Virus record (IMG/VR): IMGVR_UViG_3300029448_000175
Span: 4,923-34,571 of that record
From: a virus
Strand: one strand, 5' to 3'
DNA: 29,649 bases
The notes under the pieces were generated by a model, which had not been told where the DNA came from, made no database searches, and saw nothing but the letters and a program-made list of their open reading frames with translations. The translations under genes and the position numbers were made by a program. Shown piece by piece: positions 2,041 through 24,940 of the stretch; position 1 is the stretch's first letter; the number at the start of each line of letters is the position of its first letter.

Positions 2041-5000
2041 CTAATCATGCAAGTGACATCTAGTCTTAGGTTTTTTAACCATGTTCTTACATCTAGAGCT
2101 ATCTCGTTTAATAAAAGTGCATCTAGTTTTAGATTTTTCTTTAGTTTCTTTTTTTTCTTTTTTTATCTGCTCTTTAATTTTCTCTCTACGTAATTGCTCT
2201 TTAGTTAGATACTTAGTATATTCGTTTTCTTTGCCTTCGTTAATAATTCTAACACGCTCTTCATTTTTACCAGGTCCTAAACCCCAGTTACTCCAACCCG
2301 CAGCCATTAGTATTCTTTGCCAGTTATAATAATCTTGATCTAAAGCGTTTTGTATGTTATTACCTTTTTTATAATATCTATTTAAAGGTAAGTTTGCAGT
2401 AGATTCTATAACTTGAGTTGACGCTTCTAAAAGAGGACCGTTTAAAGTTAAACCTTCTCGTTCTATAATTTTTTTATTTAACTTGTAAGTATTACCAGCG
2501 GCGTCTAACTTAGTAAACTTAGAGCCTATGGTTGGAGATATATTAAGTAGTCTTTCACCAACTTCGCTATAGTCAGCGCCGTAAGATTTACCTTCTTGCT
2601 TTATAAACTCTTGAACGCCTAGCCTAACACCGTTAACAACAGCACCTTGAATACCCATACCTCTTAAAAATGAATCAGCCGTAGTGTTAAGCATTTGTAA
2701 CTTTGATTGAGCTTTTAATTCATCGTCATCTGAGTTTGTTAGTAAAGCAAATGCTCCAGACTGTAAACCAGCAAATATTATTGATTGAATAAATCCATAA
2801 TAACCTATGTTACTAAGCTTTTGTGTAAGTGAGTTTTCACCATAAAAACCTTTATACCTGCCTTTTGATATATCTAAAACATTCTTCATCATAATTCTAT
2901 TCATCTGCATTGGCGTATTAGCAAATGGTAATATGAATCTACCTGCCAAAGTTGTTTGTTGCTTAGATATTAAATCTGCTCTACTAGACTGCTGAGTTCT
3001 TTCTGCTATAGCTTGAAAGTCTATAAACGCTCTACGCTCAGCTTCTGCTTTAGATAAGCCTTCTTTTAAATATTTATTAATAGCATTTCTATAGTATGTA
3101 GCGCCGCCAGTTGATATTGCAAAGCTATCCGCTATTTTAGTAGGTAAATATCCAGCTTTAAGTATTTTAGCTATAACTGCTTTTGCTGGGTTTTTACTAT
3201 TAGACGCGGCGGCGGCAAGCTCTGCTTCACTAACGTTTATTTCCAAGCCTTGACGTCTTTGCTTCAGCATATCAGAGTTCATGATGGTCATAAAGTCTTT
3301 CCAATACTGTGGCTGGTTGGCAAAAGCTTTAGCAGCCATGAGCGGGTTGTTAAACGAAGAGTTGATAAAGTTAACAGTAGATATTAGCTGTAAAGTAGCT
3401 GATCTAGTGTTGAAGTTCATGATAGTTCCAGTAGACCCGTTTAAATAGTTCATTAAGCGTCTACTTGAGCTACTTAAGTTTTCAGCTCTAGTTCTACCAG
3501 TCTCCATGCGATCAAACATATCTTCAATAGTTTCTCTCCAGTTTTTACCAAGCTTTGACTCCATTTTATTTAGATTAGCTTCAGTAAATATTTCGTTTTT
3601 AGCTTCTATAAAATCTTTTATGTATTTAGTCCTACCAATGCCTTCTCCTAAACCTTGTATTTCGCTAGCAATAGTTTCTCCATACCACTCAGCTGTAGGC
3701 TCTCTTAAACCGCCTTCTAATTTTGTAAGCTTAGCTACGTTATCAGCGTAAGCTTTTAGTTTAGGATTATTAACTATGTGTCTTATTAATTTGTTTTGCG
3801 TAGAAGCTGCTAAGTCTGGAACTTTGTACCCTGCTTTATTCCAAATATATATTCTCATAGCCATATCAGTGGTAAAATTGCTTCCTTCTACAGGTTTGTC
3901 TAACAGTTTGACAACATCTTTGTTTTTCTTGCGAAGAGACATATAGTCGTTAGTAATAGCCTGCCTAGCGTTATTAAAATCATTTATACCTCTTTCCCAA
4001 GGTTTTATAAGATTATCTTCAAACCACTTTTTATTTTCAATACCTTGCCTACCTTTGCCATACATGGGCTCTAGCAGTAACTCTAAATCAGCAGCTGTGT
4101 CAGGTACAAAAAACTTTCTACGATTAGCTTTTTTTCCTCTAATAGCAGCTTCAGCTTTTGTAAATACTTTTTTAGATTCTATACCTAATGAACTTTCTAG
4201 TATATCGTTTACTTTTTTATTAACGTCGCTAGTTTTGCTAAATCTTAACGCTTGTTGAACATCAGACTTAATATCTAACTGATTTAAAACATTTCTAACA
4301 GCTTTAACATTAGGTAAAGCATCATCTACGAAGTACATATCATTATAGCCTTCTGAGAATTTTTTAAGCATATACATAGCTTTAGCTTCGCCAGTACTAT
4401 TACCTAGACCAGTTATGTTCTCTAACGGTATTTCAACACCTTTTGACTTAAGCCAACTGTATATAGCTGGAGCAGACTCAGCTGGCCTAGCAGTAACAAT
4501 ATACATGTGCTCTGGTCCAAACTTGTTTAGTCGCTCTTTAAACTTTTTAAACAACGGTCCTTCAACGCCGCCTCTAACATTTACAAAATCTTTAAAATCA
4601 AAACTATAACCTTGTTGCTGTAGCTCTGGTCCTTTTATAGGCCATTCACCGCTACTTATTTTAATTGTTTCTTTACCTTTAGTAGCTATAATAAAGTTTT
4701 TACCTCTGTCTATTAAAGTTTCGTCAAAGTCAAAAAAAGATCCTCCTCTAGACTGTTTATTAGGCATACGACCAAGCTCCATAGCTTTATCATATATCTT
4801 TATGTTTTCTTTTATTTTCCTAAAGTCTTTAGAAAAGCTTAGAATTTTACTTGGAGCAGCTACCTTTGTAACGCTTGCTTGCTCAGCTAACAATGTTTCA
4901 TTAATTATTTCTGCAACTTTGTTTTTATTAGCTATATATGTGCTGGCTGATTCACCTGTGAAATGTACAACTTTTCTGTCTGGTCCAAACAATTTACCTT

Positions 5001-8000
5001 GACCAAACTTTAATATACGAAGCTCACCTTCCAAGCTAACCTTATTGTCGATCATTTTATCGCCAACTTTTATTTTAGCATCTAATACTTTGTCGGCTAT
5101 ATATTTAGGAGCCCAAAGCGTTCTGTGCCCATTGTTTATATTATCTAGTGTTATAGATTTGCCGCCAGAATATATATAAGATGAGCTTTCAGCATTTGTT
5201 GTAGCAGAAGCACCTAAATGCTCGTTCTTCCATTGAAGATCAGATATTGCTAGCTCTCTAGCTTCAGCTTTGTCTTTAGTCTCTTTTAATCTTACGTTAT
5301 ATCTCTCTTTGTACTCAGCGCATTGCTCCCAAGATTTATAATACTCTTGCAGTTGCTCGTTATACTTTGGGTTAGGTCTTTTTGGTAACTTTTTAGTTTT
5401 TGGTAAAAACTTATTTGGCTTAGCTAAACCTATTTGTCTTCCTTCTCTTAAATAAATATATTCAAAAGTACTCATAGCTCTCTTACCAGACACAATGTTA
5501 GTTTGTAAAGCACCATTTAATAATACAAAAGTATTATCTATATTTTCTTTAGCATATTCTTTTTGATACAAGTCGTTCATGTATTTCAACATATCATGAT
5601 TAGCCTTGTTTATATTTTCTATTCTAGCTCTAGCGTTTGCTAATATTTGTTCTTTAGCTTGGAGTGATGTTTCTCTACCTATAGACTCTAGCGTCTGCTT
5701 AACAAAGCCTTTCATTTCCATAGGCGTAGCGTTAACTAAGTTTTCAACAGCTCCTTCGCCAAGTAGTTTTGTCATATCAGCCTCCATTTTAGCAAGTTCA
5801 GCTGGAGTAAAAGATCTATTTCTAAGTTCAGCTCTTTGAGCTTCGTAGTCTTTAACTCTAATTGTACCTTTATAACCATCTTTTAATCCTAACGAAAACT
5901 CTATCCAAGCAGACTCTATAGCCGGGTGCATTTTTTTGCCTATAGCAAAGCCCATGTCAACATACTTTTGGCGAGTTGTCGGATCGTTTAGCTTCTTACC
6001 CCTATATATACCACCTTCTGTTAATTGATTTTTTATTTCACTAGGTGTAAACTTATCAGCTTTAATAGACTTTTGATATGATCCGCCAACAGTTAAAGTT
6101 TCGTTTCTATTAAGCATTAATGTTTCAACTAAGTCAACTACAGTTGGATGTTTCTCTCTAGCTACTTTTTCGTAGTTAGCTTTACCAAAGCTTTCTATTA
6201 AGTCTCTAACTTGCAGTTTTATAGCACCTATTTGTACGCCCTGCTGCATTAAATCAGCTACAGACATACCTGTTTTTTCATTGACGCTAAATAAATACGG
6301 TGATCTACCGTCTGCTAAATGCTTAAACGCTTCGCCTAGTGGATCTAGCTTGGATCTCATAGCCTGATTTTCAAAAGCTCTAACATATTCAACTAACATG
6401 CTTTTCAATGGTCCACTCTCTGAGGCTTTAGTAATAGCTTCTAACGGCTGCATGAAAGTTTCTTTATTCATACCTTTTATTCTAACAAAAGGTTTTCTAC
6501 CTGAAGGAGCAGCAGCTATACCAAATGTTTCTTGAGTGGCTCTTTGAGTCATCTCGTTGTAGTAAGGTTTTAAACCACCTATTCTACCCATTGTAGCTTC
6601 ACCGGTTATAGTAAAGCCTTGAGGCAAAGCAGCATCAAACATTAGCCAGTTATCACCTATAGATTTTTTTAGTATAGCTATTTCGTTGCTGTTTAACTGT
6701 TGTTTTGTTTCTATTTGCTTTACAATACGATCAGCCATTGCTTTATCACCAATAACTTCTCGTCCTTTAACCTCAACTCTTTTGCCAACTACAAAAGACT
6801 CCACAAGCTCTGATAAGTATTTAGGATTAACTTGCTTATAGCTACCTGGTACTATTTCAGCTTCAGGTTTACCAGATCGTTTTTGAGCCTCAACACTTTC
6901 TGTTATTTCTTTGTATACTTTCTGGGTAGCCTCTCTTACTCTAGGGCCAGCACCTTCAGCCATGTTTAGTAAAAGCTCATTACCTTGCTTAACCATACCA
7001 GGCTTGTCTGCTATTTGCTTTTCTTTACCCGTACCTTCAACTACTTCTTGTATTACACCTAGTCTTTTAGCTAAGCTTTGAGCTCTTAAAAAACCTCTAT
7101 TTACTATAAACTTTTCTAGCTCTTGCTTGCCTTTATATTCTCTTATAACCATTTGCTCTAGCTCAGATCTCAAAGACTCTTGAAAGTTTTGTCTAGCTAA
7201 GTCTTTAGTATCTCCTAGAGGCTTTGTAAAGTCTTCGGGTATAGGATCAAACAGTCTTTTAGTCAAGCTTGTTGTTAGTCTACCTGTTGTCTCACTAATA
7301 TTATCTTTTATTCTTTGAGAAGCTCTTTGGTAAATCGCATCGCTTTCTAATAATTCAAAAGCGTTCAAACCTTTTTTCTCTGCAAAAGCGTCTGCGGCTT
7401 TTTTTATTTCATTTATTTTATTTAAGTCAGCGGCAACTTTTTCTGCTTGTTCTTTAGTGATGTTTTTAGACTGAAGCATTTCGCCCTTAACATCACCTTC
7501 TCTAGCTTTTTTACCAAACTCAATAATATCTTTACGTAAACCTTTTTTTAAACTACCACGCTGTAACGCTTGCATAAATAAAAATATGTTCTCACCGTTT
7601 ATATCTGTTTTAGCAAAGTTAGTTCCAAATCCAGCTTTTGAAAGAACAGGATATAATACATCAGATATTTTTTGACCAGTAGTTGCATTGTATGTGATCT
7701 CTCTGTTTTTAACAGCATCAGACCAAGCCATTAAATACTCTTCGTAGTATTCGTTTTTATTTCTAGTACCGTCAGGATTATAGTTTCTTTTAACTCTTTC
7801 ATTAATGATTTGTTGCTCTTGAGCTGTTAAAGAGTTTCTAAATTGATCTATTATTTTTATACCTTCATTGCTTATTTTACCATCAGGCCCCTTTAAAGAT
7901 TTTCTAAGTATAGCGTGACCTAACTCATGCAACGGATCACCCAAACTTCTAGTTTCTTTTATTCTTTGCTTATTTAAGTATATAATGTCTTTAACAGGAT

Positions 8001-11000
8001 CATAAAAACCAGAAACTTTTTTACTTTCTGCAGCCGCAGACTCTAAGCTATATTTACCACCCATGTATAGAGCGGCGGCTATACCATCACTATTAACGAC
8101 GCGAAAACCTTTTATGCCCATTTCTAAAGCAGCTGTTCTTGCTAGCTCGATCTCGCCTTTAATTATCCGGTCAAACACAGCGTCAAAAGACTTAGTTTCT
8201 ACATCAATTTTATCTGTTATTTCTTTTAGCTGCTCGTTTATTTTATTTATTTTTTCTTTTACAACACCTTCTAGCTCAGGTCTTTTTTGAACAGATCCTT
8301 GTAGATTATCTCTTTTATTTTTTACTTTTAAATATTGATCCATAAGATCAATAATTTTTTCTCTCTGCGGGCCTTGTATTCGCTCTGCGTTTAAAGACTC
8401 TACTATATTTTCAAAGTTCTTTTTTCTTAAATCAAACAGCTGTCCTTCAATAGAATTTTTACGAACACCAAGCTCTGCTTTTATATAATCAAACTCGTAC
8501 TCTTTTAAATTAGCCAACTGCTCTTTTTCTTTAGCCGTAAGCTCAACTCCTTGCTTTATTTTGTTAAGAAGCACAGACTGATTAGATAAAAATTGCATGT
8601 AATTACCGTGCGACTTAGCTGTTTCAACAGCTGTATTGTATTCGTGTAAGTATTGCAGCTTGTTTCCGGCTTTTCTAATGTCACTTATCTGTTGTTCTTG
8701 TTGCTCTTTTCTTAAGTTTTTGTTAGATTTTATTTCATTTATTTTGCTTTTAACAGCGTTATCAATAGCCTCTGGCTCAGCGCCATGCTTTAAGCCTAAA
8801 AGTCTACCAGCTTTATCAGTGCCAGGTAATTTGTTAGACAGTCTTAAAACATCTCTTTGCATCGCTTTGCCAAACTTACCTAAAGTTCTAGGTCCGCCAA
8901 CCATAAGCATGCCTACATAGTTTTCTACTAGGTGATGCGTAAAGTCTTTTTCTTCAAGTTGCTTAGCTTCAAAAAACTTTCTATCGTTTATTAGCTCTCT
9001 GTAATACTCGTCTACGCGCTCTGCAAACACTAACGTTGCAGTACCAACACCAGCCGATACATTAGCACCCATAAAAGTGCTTAATGATTTTGATCTATTA
9101 GCATTGGCTATTATAGGCGTTAATATAGGTATTTTAGTAGCCATAGTTTTTTTAATCAAACTTTGAGCCATAACATTACCAGCACCTAAAGCTCCTGGAA
9201 AAGTTAAATTAACATCTCCAGTTTGATCATTAAAAACAAATCCTTCCGCATTAAAAAGCTGTCCACCAACCACGTCAGCACCTGCTAATCTTACTATTTC
9301 GTCCGCCGCGCCTAAGCCTATTTTAACCCCTTTTTCATACGCTTTACTTTTATTGCCTCTAAGCATGTACTTTTGTATAGCGTTTTTAGTAACAGCCATT
9401 TGTTTTTCAAGCGAAACAGCTTTAGTTGTAGGCTCAATCATGCCTCTACCAGCTTTTATATACTTTGTAGTAGTACCAACTGGCAGTTTTTTAGTAGCAT
9501 ATATACTTAAAACTAAAGGCGTTAAATCTGTGGCTACATTTCTACCGCCTTCCATAACTGTTCTTACCTCGCTAGATCCAGGTCTAAGAACCTGATTTTT
9601 ATCAAACGTAGTTCCAGTAGCTTCACTGTACCAGTCAGAAAATATTTGAACTGTTTCATCGTTGCCTTCAGTAAAACCTGCGGTTTGCCCAAACAAACCT
9701 TCAGACAAATTATCTAAACCTTCAAGAGTAAAGCTTTCTTCTTCTAGCGGGGCTAAGTTTGCTTTTATTTCAATAGCTCTATTCGCTATTTTAAACTTAC
9801 TTAAAGTTTCATTAAATCTTTGAGCTATTTGAGATTCTCCTGGAAGCGTAGTTAAGTTAGCAGGAAGCTTGTTATTGTCATATATAAATTCAAGAAGTTT
9901 TATATCATCGTAATAAGTGTCTTCTGCACCCGCTAAGTTTCTCGCCGCTCCACCTAAAGTTTCAAAAGCGCTTTTAGCGCCTTTAATTGTTAAAGCTTGT
10001 CTGTTTATATAAGGCGATATTCTTTCATCTTTGACTGGTCTTTTTCCTTCAAACTGAGCGGCTAAGCCACCTAGCTCTACCAGTTCGTAATATAAATTTA
10101 ATCTTGATTGCTCTAGCTCGTCTAGTTGAAAGTCATCTGCGTCTGTTTGCGCTTGTTCTTCGTATTCTTCCTGTATAAAACCTGTAGTACTACCATCTTC
10201 GTTAAATAGCGGCACATAGCCTTTGCTTTTAAACTTAGCGTCTCTTTGTTTTATTAACTCATCTTTAACTGGACCATCAGCTAAAGTTTTTATTTTTTGG
10301 TTTAGCTCAGCTATATCTTTGTCAACGTCTAAGTCTAAGTAGTTTATACTAATGTCTTTTACTTTTTCGTTAAGTTTATTTTTATCACCTTCAGCAGTTT
10401 CTAAATCTTGCTGGTAGCTAGATTGCCAAAGAGAATTTATGTATTCTCTCTGAGCTCCAAAACGCCTATCTGCACGCTGCCAATAGCCGTCAAATTCATC
10501 GCTTACAAACGGTATAGTTGTCGCTGATCTATTTTTACCATCTATAGTTGGTCTAGTGTTAGGCATTTTAGTTTTATCTAAGCTAAAAGTTTCTTGGCTA
10601 AAATCTAGAAACAACAATGGCCCATCAGCTGAAGCGTCAGCTTTTTCCTGAGCTAATATTTTATTTTCTTTTTGTTTTTTTGTTTTTTGTATACGATCAA
10701 ATTCTTCTGGAGTTATCTCTTTATCTATGTTAGACATTTGAATAGAAGCTCCAACTCCACCTGTAGGATCAACAGCTAATGATAAATCACCAGATACATC
10801 TAAAGGGTTGAAAGACTTATAGCTTTTGGATTCCGATAAAAAATCTACCGGCTTGGATGCCGTAACGTTTGACTCCGCAGGTGCATCCACTGTCTGTGGA
10901 GTCGTTGGCTTTTCCGCGACTGTTTCTTTTTCTTTTTGTTCTTGCACAACCTTAACAGCTTTGTCGCCATGTATTTTTAAAAAATCATCTTTTCTGTGAG

Positions 11001-11043
11001 GAGCAACATCGTAAGGCTGCCCATCTACCATATATCTTTCCAT
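2041..11043 (-). CDS. Giant 3,000-residue virion/ejection polyprotein with metallopeptidase-like, HAD-like and Cys3His motifs
   Basis: This protein is likely carried inside the capsid and delivered to the host, as argued from its size, its place after the muzzle gene, and its resemblance to giant proteins of marine phages. The first 30 residues (YMVDGQPYDV...DFLKIHGDKAVKV) look like a recurrent N-terminal tag of such proteins, followed by a disordered Lys/Glu/Thr stretch. Residues about 610-675 are hydrophobic and Gly/Ala-rich. About 745-970 is coiled-coil-rich. Residues 1039-1043 are HELGH, with a candidate third zinc ligand in EEYLMA (Glu1101/1102), as in zincin peptidases. Residues about 2100-2245 carry HAD phosphatase motifs: FDFDETL (Asp2105, Asp2107), IVTARP (Thr2184), Lys2221 and FVDD (Asp2240/2241). 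Residues about 2680-2720 hold a TQQSSRADLISKQQ segment, and about 2745-2768 is membrane-like. The end has Cys2975, Cys2985, Cys2996 and His2999. It starts 6 bases after the preceding stop. No RNA polymerase DxDGD motif was found. Confidence 0.75.
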   Translation of the reverse strand: MERYMVDGQPYDVAPHRKDDFLKIHGDKAVKVVQEQKEKETVAEKPTTPQTVDAPAESNVTASKPVDFLSESKSYKSFNPLDVSGDLSLAVDPTGGVGASIQMSNIDKEITPEEFDRIQKTKKQKENKILAQEKADASADGPLLFLDFSQETFSLDKTKMPNTRPTIDGKNRSATTIPFVSDEFDGYWQRADRRFGAQREYINSLWQSSYQQDLETAEGDKNKLNEKVKDISINYLDLDVDKDIAELNQKIKTLADGPVKDELIKQRDAKFKSKGYVPLFNEDGSTTGFIQEEYEEQAQTDADDFQLDELEQSRLNLYYELVELGGLAAQFEGKRPVKDERISPYINRQALTIKGAKSAFETLGGAARNLAGAEDTYYDDIKLLEFIYDNNKLPANLTTLPGESQIAQRFNETLSKFKIANRAIEIKANLAPLEEESFTLEGLDNLSEGLFGQTAGFTEGNDETVQIFSDWYSEATGTTFDKNQVLRPGSSEVRTVMEGGRNVATDLTPLVLSIYATKKLPVGTTTKYIKAGRGMIEPTTKAVSLEKQMAVTKNAIQKYMLRGNKSKAYEKGVKIGLGAADEIVRLAGADVVGGQLFNAEGFVFNDQTGDVNLTFPGALGAGNVMAQSLIKKTMATKIPILTPIIANANRSKSLSTFMGANVSAGVGTATLVFAERVDEYYRELINDRKFFEAKQLEEKDFTHHLVENYVGMLMVGGPRTLGKFGKAMQRDVLRLSNKLPGTDKAGRLLGLKHGAEPEAIDNAVKSKINEIKSNKNLRKEQQEQQISDIRKAGNKLQYLHEYNTAVETAKSHGNYMQFLSNQSVLLNKIKQGVELTAKEKEQLANLKEYEFDYIKAELGVRKNSIEGQLFDLRKKNFENIVESLNAERIQGPQREKIIDLMDQYLKVKNKRDNLQGSVQKRPELEGVVKEKINKINEQLKEITDKIDVETKSFDAVFDRIIKGEIELARTAALEMGIKGFRVVNSDGIAAALYMGGKYSLESAAAESKKVSGFYDPVKDIIYLNKQRIKETRSLGDPLHELGHAILRKSLKGPDGKISNEGIKIIDQFRNSLTAQEQQIINERVKRNYNPDGTRNKNEYYEEYLMAWSDAVKNREITYNATTGQKISDVLYPVLSKAGFGTNFAKTDINGENIFLFMQALQRGSLKKGLRKDIIEFGKKAREGDVKGEMLQSKNITKEQAEKVAADLNKINEIKKAADAFAEKKGLNAFELLESDAIYQRASQRIKDNISETTGRLTTSLTKRLFDPIPEDFTKPLGDTKDLARQNFQESLRSELEQMVIREYKGKQELEKFIVNRGFLRAQSLAKRLGVIQEVVEGTGKEKQIADKPGMVKQGNELLLNMAEGAGPRVREATQKVYKEITESVEAQKRSGKPEAEIVPGSYKQVNPKYLSELVESFVVGKRVEVKGREVIGDKAMADRIVKQIETKQQLNSNEIAILKKSIGDNWLMFDAALPQGFTITGEATMGRIGGLKPYYNEMTQRATQETFGIAAAPSGRKPFVRIKGMNKETFMQPLEAITKASESGPLKSMLVEYVRAFENQAMRSKLDPLGEAFKHLADGRSPYLFSVNEKTGMSVADLMQQGVQIGAIKLQVRDLIESFGKANYEKVAREKHPTVVDLVETLMLNRNETLTVGGSYQKSIKADKFTPSEIKNQLTEGGIYRGKKLNDPTTRQKYVDMGFAIGKKMHPAIESAWIEFSLGLKDGYKGTIRVKDYEAQRAELRNRSFTPAELAKMEADMTKLLGEGAVENLVNATPMEMKGFVKQTLESIGRETSLQAKEQILANARARIENINKANHDMLKYMNDLYQKEYAKENIDNTFVLLNGALQTNIVSGKRAMSTFEYIYLREGRQIGLAKPNKFLPKTKKLPKRPNPKYNEQLQEYYKSWEQCAEYKERYNVRLKETKDKAEARELAISDLQWKNEHLGASATTNAESSSYIYSGGKSITLDNINNGHRTLWAPKYIADKVLDAKIKVGDKMIDNKVSLEGELRILKFGQGKLFGPDRKVVHFTGESASTYIANKNKVAEIINETLLAEQASVTKVAAPSKILSFSKDFRKIKENIKIYDKAMELGRMPNKQSRGGSFFDFDETLIDRGKNFIIATKGKETIKISSGEWPIKGPELQQQGYSFDFKDFVNVRGGVEGPLFKKFKERLNKFGPEHMYIVTARPAESAPAIYSWLKSKGVEIPLENITGLGNSTGEAKAMYMLKKFSEGYNDMYFVDDALPNVKAVRNVLNQLDIKSDVQQALRFSKTSDVNKKVNDILESSLGIESKKVFTKAEAAIRGKKANRRKFFVPDTAADLELLLEPMYGKGRQGIENKKWFEDNLIKPWERGINDFNNARQAITNDYMSLRKKNKDVVKLLDKPVEGSNFTTDMAMRIYIWNKAGYKVPDLAASTQNKLIRHIVNNPKLKAYADNVAKLTKLEGGLREPTAEWYGETIASEIQGLGEGIGRTKYIKDFIEAKNEIFTEANLNKMESKLGKNWRETIEDMFDRMETGRTRAENLSSSSRRLMNYLNGSTGTIMNFNTRSATLQLISTVNFINSSFNNPLMAAKAFANQPQYWKDFMTIMNSDMLKQRRQGLEINVSEAELAAAASNSKNPAKAVIAKILKAGYLPTKIADSFAISTGGATYYRNAINKYLKEGLSKAEAERRAFIDFQAIAERTQQSSRADLISKQQTTLAGRFILPFANTPMQMNRIMMKNVLDISKGRYKGFYGENSLTQKLSNIGYYGFIQSIIFAGLQSGAFALLTNSDDDELKAQSKLQMLNTTADSFLRGMGIQGAVVNGVRLGVQEFIKQEGKSYGADYSEVGERLLNISPTIGSKFTKLDAAGNTYKLNKKIIEREGLTLNGPLLEASTQVIESTANLPLNRYYKKGNNIQNALDQDYYNWQRILMAAGWSNWGLGPGKNEERVRIINEGKENEYTKYLTKEQLRREKIKEQIKKEKKETKEKSKTRCTFIKRDSSRCKNMVKKPKTRCHLHD

Positions 11044-21453: not shown

Positions 21454-22434
21454 CTACTTGTTTCTTACGTTTAATTTTTCGTTATTTTTGCCTGTGCCAA
21501 CTTGAGCTATATCACCTTGCTTTAATGTTACACCAGCTAGCTGCAGTATTTTATTGGTTAGCATAGTAGCTTCAGAAGAATGAACTTCAAAATCTACAGA
21601 TCTAGCAGGATCATACAAAGGCTTTCTAACTTCTTTATTATCAAAACTCAAAGACTGAGTTATATATCCCCACCTAGGCGTTATAGGTTTTCTAATGTAA
21701 GTTATTATAATATTTTCAGGCCTTACATTAGCAGGATCTAAATTACCGTTGTTATCAAACCTTCTAAATCTAGGACTTCCACCTTGAGCTGCTGTGTCAT
21801 AAGAAGGGTCAACAAAATATCTTTGAGGACTATTGAAAGTATAGTTGTGTGGGTAATTATCTGCTCCAAAAACTCTTATAAAATCTTTTTCTCTACCTTC
21901 AAAAGTGTATATAGGCCTTCTTAGTGTAGGTCTTGTAAGCTTATTGCTCATACAATATATGAGTTCTTTTTTACTTACATATTCAGCTTCGCTAACAAAA
22001 TGAGCTTTTTCTCTTTGTGAATAATCAACAGGACCAACGCCTTCAAATCCGGTAGCCTCAACTTCTCCAGAGGCTTGATTGTTATTGTTTACAGAAACTA
22101 GTATAGTTTGTATTTTATAAAAGTCTTCAGGCGTAAACATATTATATAAAAAAAAGTTAAAACCTGAAGTGTCAGGAACTTTAAGAGAAGCTCCATAAAC
22201 TTCTTTTTCAAAATACTCTATTTTTTCTCTAATAATATCAAATCTATCAGAATGCTCTGAATCGTTGTGCCTAGTTCTACCGTAAGCTTCGTGGTCATAA
22301 AAATAAGAGTCAAATATTTCCATTTGAGCCTGCTCGGCAAAAACATTAAACTCTCTTGGCGTTATATACCCTCTTTGCTCTTTGTTTGAAGTGTCTAATA
22401 CTCTTTGATATATCTTGTTTATGTTTATTCCCAT
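21454..22434 (-). CDS. Connector/ring-like structural protein
   Basis: This 326-residue protein begins MGININKIYQRVLDTSNKEQ, then RGYITPREFNVFAEQAQMEI. I recall this start in a conserved structural protein of marine crAss-like or related phages, encoded just before the second connector gene. The rest is mixed: an acidic helix (about 55-85), a short LYNMFTPEDFYKIQ segment (about 92-105), a Tyr/Arg-rich beta part, then a PITPRWGYI segment, and a C-terminal helix with EVHSSEATMLTNKILQLAG. It has no membrane segment and no catalytic motif. Its place between the post-capsid gene and the tail-tube-A-like gene supports a portal-adjacent ring. Translation begins 2 bases beyond the 60-nt hairpin, so its expression may be controlled by that structure. 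Confidence 0.55.
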   Translation of the reverse strand: MGININKIYQRVLDTSNKEQRGYITPREFNVFAEQAQMEIFDSYFYDHEAYGRTRHNDSEHSDRFDIIREKIEYFEKEVYGASLKVPDTSGFNFFLYNMFTPEDFYKIQTILVSVNNNNQASGEVEATGFEGVGPVDYSQREKAHFVSEAEYVSKKELIYCMSNKLTRPTLRRPIYTFEGREKDFIRVFGADNYPHNYTFNSPQRYFVDPSYDTAAQGGSPRFRRFDNNGNLDPANVRPENIIITYIRKPITPRWGYITQSLSFDNKEVRKPLYDPARSVDFEVHSSEATMLTNKILQLAGVTLKQGDIAQVGTGKNNEKLNVRNK

Positions 22435-22436
22435 AC

Positions 22437-22496
22437 AATTACTTTTTATAGTTGAGTAACCACCCCGAAGAGTGGCTACTCTTCTATAAAGTAATT
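22437..22496 (-). promoter_or_regulatory. 60-nt extended hairpin with UUCG tetraloop filling the intergenic gap
   Basis: On the minus-strand RNA an inner 12-bp stem (GAGTAGCCACTC with GGGTGGTTACTC, two G-U pairs) is closed by a C(UUCG)G loop at 22466-22469. Two unpaired A residues on each side lead to an outer stem, AATTACTTTATAG with CTATAAAAAGTAATT, with a 2-base bulge. The left arm starts inside the upstream stop codon and the right arm ends 2 bases before the next ATG. No T-tract follows, so it is not a standard intrinsic terminator. It could stabilise or process the mRNA, or control translation of the ring-like gene. Confidence 0.75.
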
Positions 22497-23340
22497 ACGC
22501 GTTTAATCGCTTTTCAATGTTAGAATAAATCTCCATACCTTCATCAGTTTTAAACCAATGAGCAAGCGCCGTGTATGGATGCTCGTCAAAAGGTACCGTC
22601 ATTAATTTTCTACCTGTAGAACCCCAAGTAAAGTTTCTTTGATCTTGAGAAAGTCTTATTATGTTAGCTTCAACGGCTTTAATACCAAAGTTTCTAAGCT
22701 GAACATTATCGTCTTTAGCTAATTCTAAGAACAAAGTAGGATTTCTACGAGCAAATAGTAGTAAATCTCTTTTAAGTTCCTTAGAGCTCAAGTTAGATAC
22801 TTGAGATCCAACCTCTGCTCTCATTATTGCTTCAGCTAAATCAATATCTATAGATCTTGCTAGATCTAAAGCTTCTATTTCCATTTCTAAAATGTCAAGC
22901 TGGTTAGCCGCAACTTCAACAGGTTTGAACTCATAATAAATTCTATCTTTATCTGGGTGATATAGCGATAAAAGTTTTTGAAGTACTGTTTTTTCTTTAG
23001 GCACAAACAAAGATCCTTTTTTAAAAACAACATGCTCTAATCTTTGGTCGCCTTGCATTTCGTCTACAAAGCATGTTCTTTGATTAGCAGTGTTTTTTAG
23101 CTCTCTTTCGTAACCTTTTTCTTCATCAAACCAGTATATGTTGGAAGTTTTTATAGATCTTGTTAAAGGTTTTCTATTATCTTTTAAATAATAAATTCTA
23201 TCTTTTATTTCCCATTCTGGTTTTTTAAGTTGAGGCTTTTTAATAAGCGTATCAACTACATCGTTTGTAGCTTTTACTTTAGGTTGTGCTACTTTAACTT
23301 TAGGAGCAGCTTTTGCTGCAGTTTCTTTTTTCTTTGTCAT
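22495..23340 (-). CDS. Conserved phage protein of unknown function with basic Lys/Ala tail
   Basis: This is a 281-residue protein. Residues 1-45 are a disordered basic tail of Lys, Ala, Pro and Val (AAPKVKVAQPKVKATN) that could bind DNA or a negatively charged partner. The conserved-looking core begins with YYLKDNRKPLTRSI (about 49-62) and continues with NQRTCFVDEMQGDQ (about 86-99) and LQKLLSLYHP (about 121-130). The C-terminal half is helical and charged. I recall proteins with a KDNRKPL...FVDE...LLSLYHP pattern beside the capsid gene in many uncultured marine phages, none with a known job. It sits between the capsid terminator and the 60-nt hairpin, so it is probably made at a lower level than capsid. 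Capsid-linked or DNA-condensing roles are inference only. Confidence 0.6.
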   Translation of the reverse strand: MTKKKETAAKAAPKVKVAQPKVKATNDVVDTLIKKPQLKKPEWEIKDRIYYLKDNRKPLTRSIKTSNIYWFDEEKGYERELKNTANQRTCFVDEMQGDQRLEHVVFKKGSLFVPKEKTVLQKLLSLYHPDKDRIYYEFKPVEVAANQLDILEMEIEALDLARSIDIDLAEAIMRAEVGSQVSNLSSKELKRDLLLFARRNPTLFLELAKDDNVQLRNFGIKAVEANIIRLSQDQRNFTWGSTGRKLMTVPFDEHPYTALAHWFKTDEGMEIYSNIEKRLNA

Positions 23341-23360
23341 GATATAATATAATAAAAATT

Positions 23361-23393
23361 AAAAAAAATAGAGGGAGAAATTAATCTCCCTCT
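23361..23393 (-). terminator. Intrinsic terminator after the major capsid gene
   Basis: On the minus strand AGAGGGAGA and TCTCCCTCT form a perfect 9-bp stem around a 6-base loop (TTAATT). One A and an unbroken run of eight T follow. The stem begins 14 bases after the capsid TAA. The plus strand lacks a T-tract after the stem, so it acts on minus-strand transcription. The next gene starts only about 20 bases later, so this probably limits rather than stops read-through. Confidence 0.9.
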
Positions 23394-23407
23394 AATAATA
23401 TAAGTGC

Positions 23408-24940
23408 TTACTGCATTAACACGAAGTTGTTAGCACCTTGAGTTACCAAACATCTTTCAGATAAGAAGTGGATTTGCATAGCATCCAAAGCAGAAGTAGC
23501 AGCACCAACAGATCCTGTTACCCAAGACTTCATTCTTCTGTCATCAGTTTGAGAAGCTCTATAACGAACGTGTAAGAAAGGACGCTTCAAGTTTTTACCA
23601 AGAATTTGGTCGTAAACAGTTGAAGTACCAGCTGGAATAAATACACCGCGAATAGCAGCTGATCCAGCAGCGTCGTTAATACCGCCTCTAGTAGCTTTAT
23701 CATTTAGGTATCTGAAGTCAGACTTATAGAAGTCGTAAGAACCTCTTCTAAATCCAGAGAAGCCTAAGTTAAGAGCCATATCTTCAGAGTTATCAAAAAC
23801 TCCGTAAGAAGTACCACCAGCGTAATAACCGTTCATAGCTGCTAGCATATCGTCGATAGCAAGAGATACGTTTCTATTACAGAAAATCATGTTTTCTTCA
23901 ATAGCACCTTGCTTGTCAAACTCAGCTAAAATAGCATCAAACTCAGCTAAATCAGTAGCAGCAGCTACACCATCAATACCAGCAGTAATATTACCTCTAT
24001 CTAATAAAGCAGCAAATAATCCTTCTGTACCGTGGTCATTACCAGCAGCTGAAGTAGCACTTGGCAAGAATCCAGTACCCGGAGTTTCAGAAGTAGTACT
24101 ACCTAGTTCAGATTCTAGCATAGCCATTTCTAAATAATCAGCAAATCGAGCTCTAGTATCAGCTTGAGCTTTTAGATACCATAAGTAACCTGACTCACCC
24201 ATTTCAGAAGCAACTTCAACCCAACCAACTCTTGAAGCGTCTGATCCAGATACTTCGTAGTAATCTTTTAAGATAATTGGCTTGTTGTTGAAAGATACAA
24301 AGTCTGGCTCGTTAGCGGGTCTACTATCAGTAGCAGCACCAGTTGCAGTAGTATGATACGACTGTCCTTTACCAAATTCAGAACCATAAACTAAAATAGT
24401 AGTTCCGTCAGCAGTAGCGTCAGTTGTTAAAGCAGTACCATCGTAAGAAAATACTTCAATAGTGTTAGCGCCAACGTTGACAGCTACAACTATACACTTT
24501 CTAACTTCATTTGCATTAGCTACGATTACAGTGTCGTTAACTCTAATACCATGATCGACAGTACCTGTTGGAGCAGCTGTTACAGCATTTCCATCAATGT
24601 CGTTTTGTAAAGTAATTAAATCAGAAGTAGCACCAATACCACCAGTAACAGCACCACCAGCTTGAGTAACTGTACCTGTATAAGACAAATGTAATCTACC
24701 TTGCTCAGACCAAACAACTTGGTCAGCAGTCATGGGCTCTTCAGCGCCTACTTGTGATAAAAATCCTGAAATAGTTCTAGGACCAAAAACCTCAGCTTCT
24801 TTTTCCATTAAATCTGGAACATATTGTTGCGCCCAGCCTTGTCCGGCTGTTGACGCTAGGTCTAAATAATTTGAAGCTAGCGTTTGTCGCTGAGCAGAAG
24901 GAACGCTGTTCAAATTAGCACCAAATGATAATTGTGGCAT
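23408..24940 (-). CDS. Major capsid protein (HK97 fold, crAss-like type)
   Basis: This 510-residue protein would form the capsid shell. The N-terminal arm (residues 1-80) includes AQQYVPDLMEKEAEVFG and ends with a VVWSEQGRLHLSYTG strand. Residues about 88-190 are a Gly/Thr/Ala/Val-rich beta region that looks like an inserted domain or E-loop extension. The P-domain-like part has a WYLKAQADTRARFADYLEMAMLESE helix region (about 250-275), then a Glu/Asp-rich helix and an NMIFCNRNVSLAIDDMLAA segment. The C-terminus ends with RYRASQTDDRRMKSW and a TQGANNFVLMQ strand. Position after portal and scaffold, and a strong terminator directly downstream, fit the most abundant virion protein. No separate prohead protease gene is visible in the window. 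Confidence 0.85.
   Translation of the reverse strand: MPQLSFGANLNSVPSAQRQTLASNYLDLASTAGQGWAQQYVPDLMEKEAEVFGPRTISGFLSQVGAEEPMTADQVVWSEQGRLHLSYTGTVTQAGGAVTGGIGATSDLITLQNDIDGNAVTAAPTGTVDHGIRVNDTVIVANANEVRKCIVVAVNVGANTIEVFSYDGTALTTDATADGTTILVYGSEFGKGQSYHTTATGAATDSRPANEPDFVSFNNKPIILKDYYEVSGSDASRVGWVEVASEMGESGYLWYLKAQADTRARFADYLEMAMLESELGSTTSETPGTGFLPSATSAAGNDHGTEGLFAALLDRGNITAGIDGVAAATDLAEFDAILAEFDKQGAIEENMIFCNRNVSLAIDDMLAAMNGYYAGGTSYGVFDNSEDMALNLGFSGFRRGSYDFYKSDFRYLNDKATRGGINDAAGSAAIRGVFIPAGTSTVYDQILGKNLKRPFLHVRYRASQTDDRRMKSWVTGSVGAATSALDAMQIHFLSERCLVTQGANNFVLMQ

Follow-up and report, generated by a model that had tools for sequence, protein, structure and literature searches.

The window analysed here, 29,649 nucleotides long, comes from a virus record of 34.6 kb. 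The structural genes are encoded on the minus strand, so that the RNA considered is the reverse complement of the window letters, and all features given below are on this strand. The gene order is terminase, portal, a scaffold-like gene, capsid (phrog_13704), a 281-aa gene (phrog_34748), a 326-aa virion gene (phrog_14543) and a 417-aa virion gene. We take the virion structural gene phrog_13704 (23408–24940) as the major capsid gene on the basis of its family and its position, which matches that of the annotated capsid gene of locus L210. The 281-aa gene (22495–23340) is located directly 3′ of it, and a hairpin separates this gene from the head/ring-like 326-aa structural gene downstream (21454–22434). 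A solved-structure search with the three virion proteins yielded no identity. The same strand also encodes a 3000-aa virion-region protein (2041–11043), whose last residues (CTFIKRDSSRCKNMVKKPKTRCHLHD) resemble a small Cys/His zinc-binding tail.

Between the capsid and 281-aa genes lies a canonical intrinsic terminator with a 10-bp stem and U8 (23361–23394), which serves as our contrast case. This strong U8 terminator is conserved across the clade, and the gut phage crAss001 also has a terminator after its capsid gene (NC_049977, about 29830–29868). Immediately upstream of the 281-aa gene, most loci share a conserved leader of A and T only (TTTTTATTATATTATATTATG-like; 23338–23362 in the window), which may be a promoter of an unusual kind or serve as a translation leader.

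The relatives with annotated genomes (Flavobacterium elemo phages, Cellulophaga phages phi38:1 and Calle_1, Maribacter phage Panino and an uncultivated podovirus) are crAss-related phages of Bacteroidetes, while the clade relatives are metagenomic contigs throughout. The hosts are likely to be Bacteroidetes, judging from this relatedness and from a few contigs binned as Sphingobacteriales or Bacteroidetes. Two further contigs carry a Maricaulis bin label, which is probably a binning error.

The stop codon of the 281-aa gene (22497–22495) and the AUG of the 326-aa gene (22434–22432) are separated by a gap of 60 nt. Here the gene-strand RNA reads UAAUUACUU UAUAG AA GAGUAGCCACUC UUCG GGGUGGUUACUC AA CUAUA AA AAGUAAUUG U AUG. 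The original prediction placed a hairpin at 22437–22496, and folding confirms it with one additional U·G wobble: the whole hairpin has 26 pairs, spans 22436–22497 and takes in the stop codon. The predicted C(UUCG)G loop, symmetric AA/AA internal loop and missing T-tract are all present as described. The conserved core (22447–22488), delimited by a covariance model and compensatory changes, consists of UAUAG and CUAUA arms, the AA residues and a 12-bp inner stem capped by UUCG; the model matches the window at 22494–22432 with 64 bits. Within it, the GC-rich inner stem GAGUAGCCACUC(UUCG)GGGUGGUUACUC occupies 22454–22481, with pairing kept in nearly all relatives despite letter changes, and the UUCG tetraloop, closed by C-G, is at 22466–22469. 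Outside the core, an outer extension pairs a 5′ arm (the stop codon UAA, then UUACUU; 22489–22497), found in a minority of relatives only, with a 3′ arm (AAGUAAUUG; 22436–22444) that ends 1 nt before the AUG and is not conserved.

The minimum free energy of the minus strand is −31.4 kcal/mol, versus −11.9 ± 2.7 in shuffles (z −7.2; 0 of 200 shuffles as stable), and the plus-strand fold has a z of −5.7. A scan in 10-nt steps found no 70-nt stretch of the window more stable than the hairpin on either strand, one coding stretch being narrowly behind. A bidirectional terminator was considered and rejected, the other strand likewise having no T-tract. An Rfam scan of the window gave no match at the gathering score and chance-level matches only at a relaxed threshold, none credible. 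The hairpin is thus a real RNA element that matches no Rfam family, and we found nothing on it in the literature on RNA structures and terminators of crAss-like phages.

Conservation and covariation in related phages

The presence of the hairpin was counted in 85 loci (L001–L006 and L009–L087) gathered by the 326-aa ring protein without regard to the gap or the hairpin. It stands directly after the 281-aa stop codon in 84 of them, and 80 of these 84 show no clear U-tract. L024 and L026 are included; their low automatic scores arose only because a competing fold was preferred. The exception is L022 (3266–4001), where the hairpin is missing and its place is taken by an extra gene of about 120 aa and, after this gene, a U8 terminator tipped by UUUCGG. 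With matches to a core string added, 158 clade loci were examined; the added loci are biased towards that inner stem and were left out of the presence count. The core string itself (CCACTCTTCGGGGTGG, 16 nt) was rejected as a family marker, being too generic: in viral contigs L088–L207 it also caps many phage terminators unrelated to this element, as a stable hairpin tip of common occurrence.

About 150 related phages have the hairpin at this site, with its sequence rewritten. The inner stems include CCACUC/GGGUGG, GGUCGCUC/GGGCGAUC, GGUCAUCUC/AGGUGACC, UUAGGCCGCU/GGUGGCCUAA and AGGCCUGC/GUGGGCCU, and the outer stem is found as UAUAG/CUAUA or UGUAG/CUACA. The loop is UUCG or UACG in 50 of 91 distinct hairpins and variable otherwise, with 24 loop sequences in all. 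The A residues and an ACUAYAA 3′ arm are conserved.

Compensatory changes occur in both the inner and the outer stem. In 73 aligned relatives, 83.0% of cells are paired; column shuffles reach 70.9% and slid registers no more than 56%. This model-based alignment, with the structure written out, was fitted to the structure, which favours pairing. The same alignment has 174 double-change cells versus 57 in shuffles (0/500), and its covariation is 0.450 versus 0.215 (0/500). A MAFFT alignment alone, not fitted to the structure, still has seven inner pairs with double changes. The covariation analysis proposed along with the original prediction therefore favours a functional RNA structure, as the homologous gaps do have covarying arms. 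With compensatory changes at homologous positions, the hairpin is a conserved structured RNA.

A first covariance model (R1) caught the inner stem only, and a second one with the full stem (R2) was used. R2 found no second site in 715 kb of loci. Each of 26 long records has one site, located in this gap, and the sole second match among them is a weak one to the same site of the L012 record on the other strand. In a bacterial genome collection that was not used for model building, three of four contigs were matched by the model, and a similar hairpin is present in the fourth. In the gut phage crAss001, the post-capsid gene is followed by no gap and hence by no such hairpin.

The original description of the element as near-palindromic holds for its letters but not for the equivalence of its strands, as the gene strand folds much better in the relatives. 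G-U pairs number 224 on the sense strand but 62 on the antisense strand, and in 90 of the 91 distinct hairpins the sense fold is more stable. Such a bias would be absent from a DNA palindrome, which indicates that the element is selected as gene-strand RNA.

Placement between the two genes

The element starts about 6 nt after the stop codon, and its first paired base is usually the 10th or 11th counted from the start of that codon. Its last pair usually lies 12–13 nt before the next AUG, whichever start codon follows. In L018, L020, L058, L079, L083 and L084, a small gene (ending in DCGCxKRQ..FPYK or similar) is inserted between the hairpin and the ring gene. The small gene, with its C-terminal CGCxKR..LN(K/R)xFPYK-like motif, is also present in L028 and is absent from the phage of the window. 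Where it is inserted, the hairpin is still found behind the 281-aa gene and none is found in front of the ring gene, indicating that the hairpin goes with the upstream gene.

It had been proposed that the hairpin masks the region where ribosomes would bind. As a general function, this is not borne out. The outer extension, in which the stop codon is paired with bases as far as −2, is limited to this phage and a dozen or so loci, most of them of the UAAUUACUUUAUAG type, and is thus not the conserved function. In most relatives the hairpin ends 12–13 nt before the AUG and stays with the 281-aa gene, which further disfavours masking; conserved pairing of the downstream initiation region, the mark of a masking hairpin, was not found. 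The UUCG loop at a stop codon also raised the idea of ribosome bypassing of the T4 gene 60 type. This was rejected, since the gap is not flanked by matching take-off and landing codons, the loop varies among relatives, and the products of the two genes are separate proteins there.

Possible role as an mRNA boundary

In five cultured or complete relatives (Cellulophaga phi38:1, Calle_1, Flavobacterium elemo phages, Maribacter phage Panino and ctfjg026), the same gap holds a U-tract intrinsic terminator. It is directly followed in four of the five by a TAnnTTTG motif, a type known as the Bacteroidetes promoter consensus (PMC7366714); small genes intervene in Panino. Within the clade, U-tract hairpins are found in L028 (sister to the U-less L079 with a branch support of 99), L029, L065 and L085. 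Clear U-tract cases are limited to these four and the cultured phages, since the automatic ‘U’ label in the tree is over-sensitive and counts U-containing outer arms. The four have a GC-rich hairpin directly followed by a U-tract, as in an intrinsic terminator, whereas the hairpin of the window has no such tract. Hairpins with and without a U-tract thus substitute for one another at this site, suggesting a shared task, namely marking the end of the head-gene mRNA.

The hairpin gap differs from the post-capsid gap of the same genomes. A U-rich tract is found in 27 of 156 loci at the former versus 128 of 156 at the latter; the other 129 loci have at most four U in eight positions or no scored stem at the hairpin gap. 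Among the 73 aligned relatives, the 8 nt after the inner stem contain at most four U in 69, only one in 16 of them, and a median of three. The stem has a median of 17 pairs, compared to 13 for the post-capsid terminator. In most relatives it totals 15–20 pairs and spans 37–43 nt, with shifting internal mismatches and a variable sequence. A search of 135 loci, covering the gap and the final 500 nt of the 281-aa gene, gave no sense-strand promoter of the TTTG or TAnnTTTG form, so that the ring/tail genes should need read-through. An overlapping promoter was likewise rejected: the conserved CUAUAA arm is not TAnnTTTG, and no full motif of either form lies in or before the gap on the sense strand of these loci.

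Among the roles listed in the original prediction, we favour an exonuclease block or a processing site. The hairpin may be a cis-acting element of the late mRNA of a clade of marine crAss-related phages that forms a leaky boundary between the head block and the ring/tail block by one or both of these routes. We regard this as the simplest reading and hold it with slightly less than even confidence. It would divide the 3′ end of the capsid block (the capsid and 281-aa genes) from the ring/tail block. The transcript would run through the hairpin, whose long stem of about 17 pairs would be cut by a double-strand-specific RNase (RNase III type) or would stop 3′-to-5′ exonucleases. The head-gene mRNA would thereby be kept stable, and the ring/tail mRNA would be a separate, less abundant piece. 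Such a role is supported by the hairpin occupying the place of the U-tract terminator of cultured relatives. The tails of crAss-like phages are built of dodecameric rings (PMC10136315), so a lower expression of the ring proteins than of the capsid protein can be expected.

Several observations could also be read against a boundary. The exchange with U-tract hairpins is equally expected if the hairpin is itself a weak terminator, and a promoter of another type than TTTG/TAnnTTTG could lie in the gap. The main rival reading is an attenuating terminator without the need for a U-tract, a pause or release hairpin acting perhaps with a host or phage factor and lowering ring/tail transcription. The U-tract terminators at the same position in all five cultured or complete relatives and the exchange inside the clade both suit it; a leaky stop would make sense where no TTTG/TAnnTTTG promoter follows, and leaky termination after the capsid gene is a phage strategy exemplified by T7 Tphi. 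We nevertheless consider it somewhat unlikely, given the few U after the inner stem in 69 of the 73 relatives, the U-rich tracts concentrated at the post-capsid gap rather than at this one, and an AU-rich covarying outer stem that termination does not need. The fixed distances to stop and start codons, kept in most loci including those with the inserted small gene, could instead reflect translation. The hairpin might insulate the two genes by blocking re-initiation or coupling or, by folding the mRNA up to about −13, set the initiation rate of the next gene. The leader between hairpin and AUG is A-rich, and A at −3, −6, −12 and −13 together with low pairing favours initiation in Flavobacterium (PMC6847099). 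On the other hand, the hairpin keeps to the upstream gene though the downstream gene changes, the extension masking the start site is not conserved, and the other gene junctions of this module, which are short, lack a hairpin of this kind. Masking of a Shine-Dalgarno sequence is inapplicable in Bacteroidetes, which lack these sequences (PMC6847099). A role in translation is thus unlikely.

Binding of a protein, for example the 281-aa protein, whose N terminus is lysine-rich, or a different virion protein regulating its own mRNA, would fit one copy per genome always adjoining the 281-aa gene, as well as the conserved A residues and ACUAYAA arm. However, the loop and inner stem vary freely (24 loops in 91 hairpins), unlike typical protein-recognised hairpins, and the 281-aa protein gave no match to an RNA-binding family, making this idea rather improbable. 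A long inverted repeat within an AT-rich gap might also suggest a DNA-level element such as a cruciform or a recombination or replication site. The strand bias in G-U pairs and stability leaves this hardly plausible, and a chance palindrome is excluded by covariation and recurrence.

Returning to the mRNA boundary, we propose quite tentatively that the hairpins might represent a novel family of cis-acting RNAs in marine crAss-related phages. In this view, a boundary hairpin lacking a U-tract would replace the terminator-promoter pair of cultured relatives and set the head-to-tail stoichiometry post-transcriptionally, by processing or decay and not by transcription stop and restart. The hairpin adds a conserved structured RNA, absent from Rfam, to a widespread marine phage group whose gene regulation is almost unstudied, and a covariance model now exists for finding it. 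As close relatives use either a U-less or a U-tract hairpin at one site, they offer a natural comparison of how capsid and tail expression are separated in one operon.

Comparison with known systems

The terminators of the cultured relatives are the nearest counterparts, being GC-rich hairpins in the same gap, bordered upstream by the 281-aa homologue and downstream by the ring-like gene or its insert. All carry a U-tract, and a TAnnTTTG motif directly follows in four of five; the hairpin described here has neither, and its stem is longer, with an AU-rich covarying outer part. In phage T7, Tphi is an intrinsic terminator with a U-tract after capsid gene 10, used by a single-subunit RNA polymerase. 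Like Tphi, our hairpin sits between the capsid and the head-tail connector or tail genes and would lower the expression of the latter, but it lacks the U-tract.

The RNase III sites of T7-type phages are long, sequence-variable intercistronic stems with an internal loop at mRNA boundaries. The hairpin resembles them in its long variable intercistronic stem and internal loop. An RNase III site would be expected to have a stem of about 20 pairs with no conserved sequence; the median of 17 pairs, the varying stem length and the moving mismatches seen here speak neither clearly for nor clearly against such a site. It differs in that the stem is slightly under two turns in many relatives and that there is one site per genome. 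Finally, phage T4 has CUUCGG hairpins between its genes, which are likewise intercistronic and C(UUCG)G-capped. In the present family, by contrast, the loop is not fixed, and it is the place and the long outer stem that are conserved.
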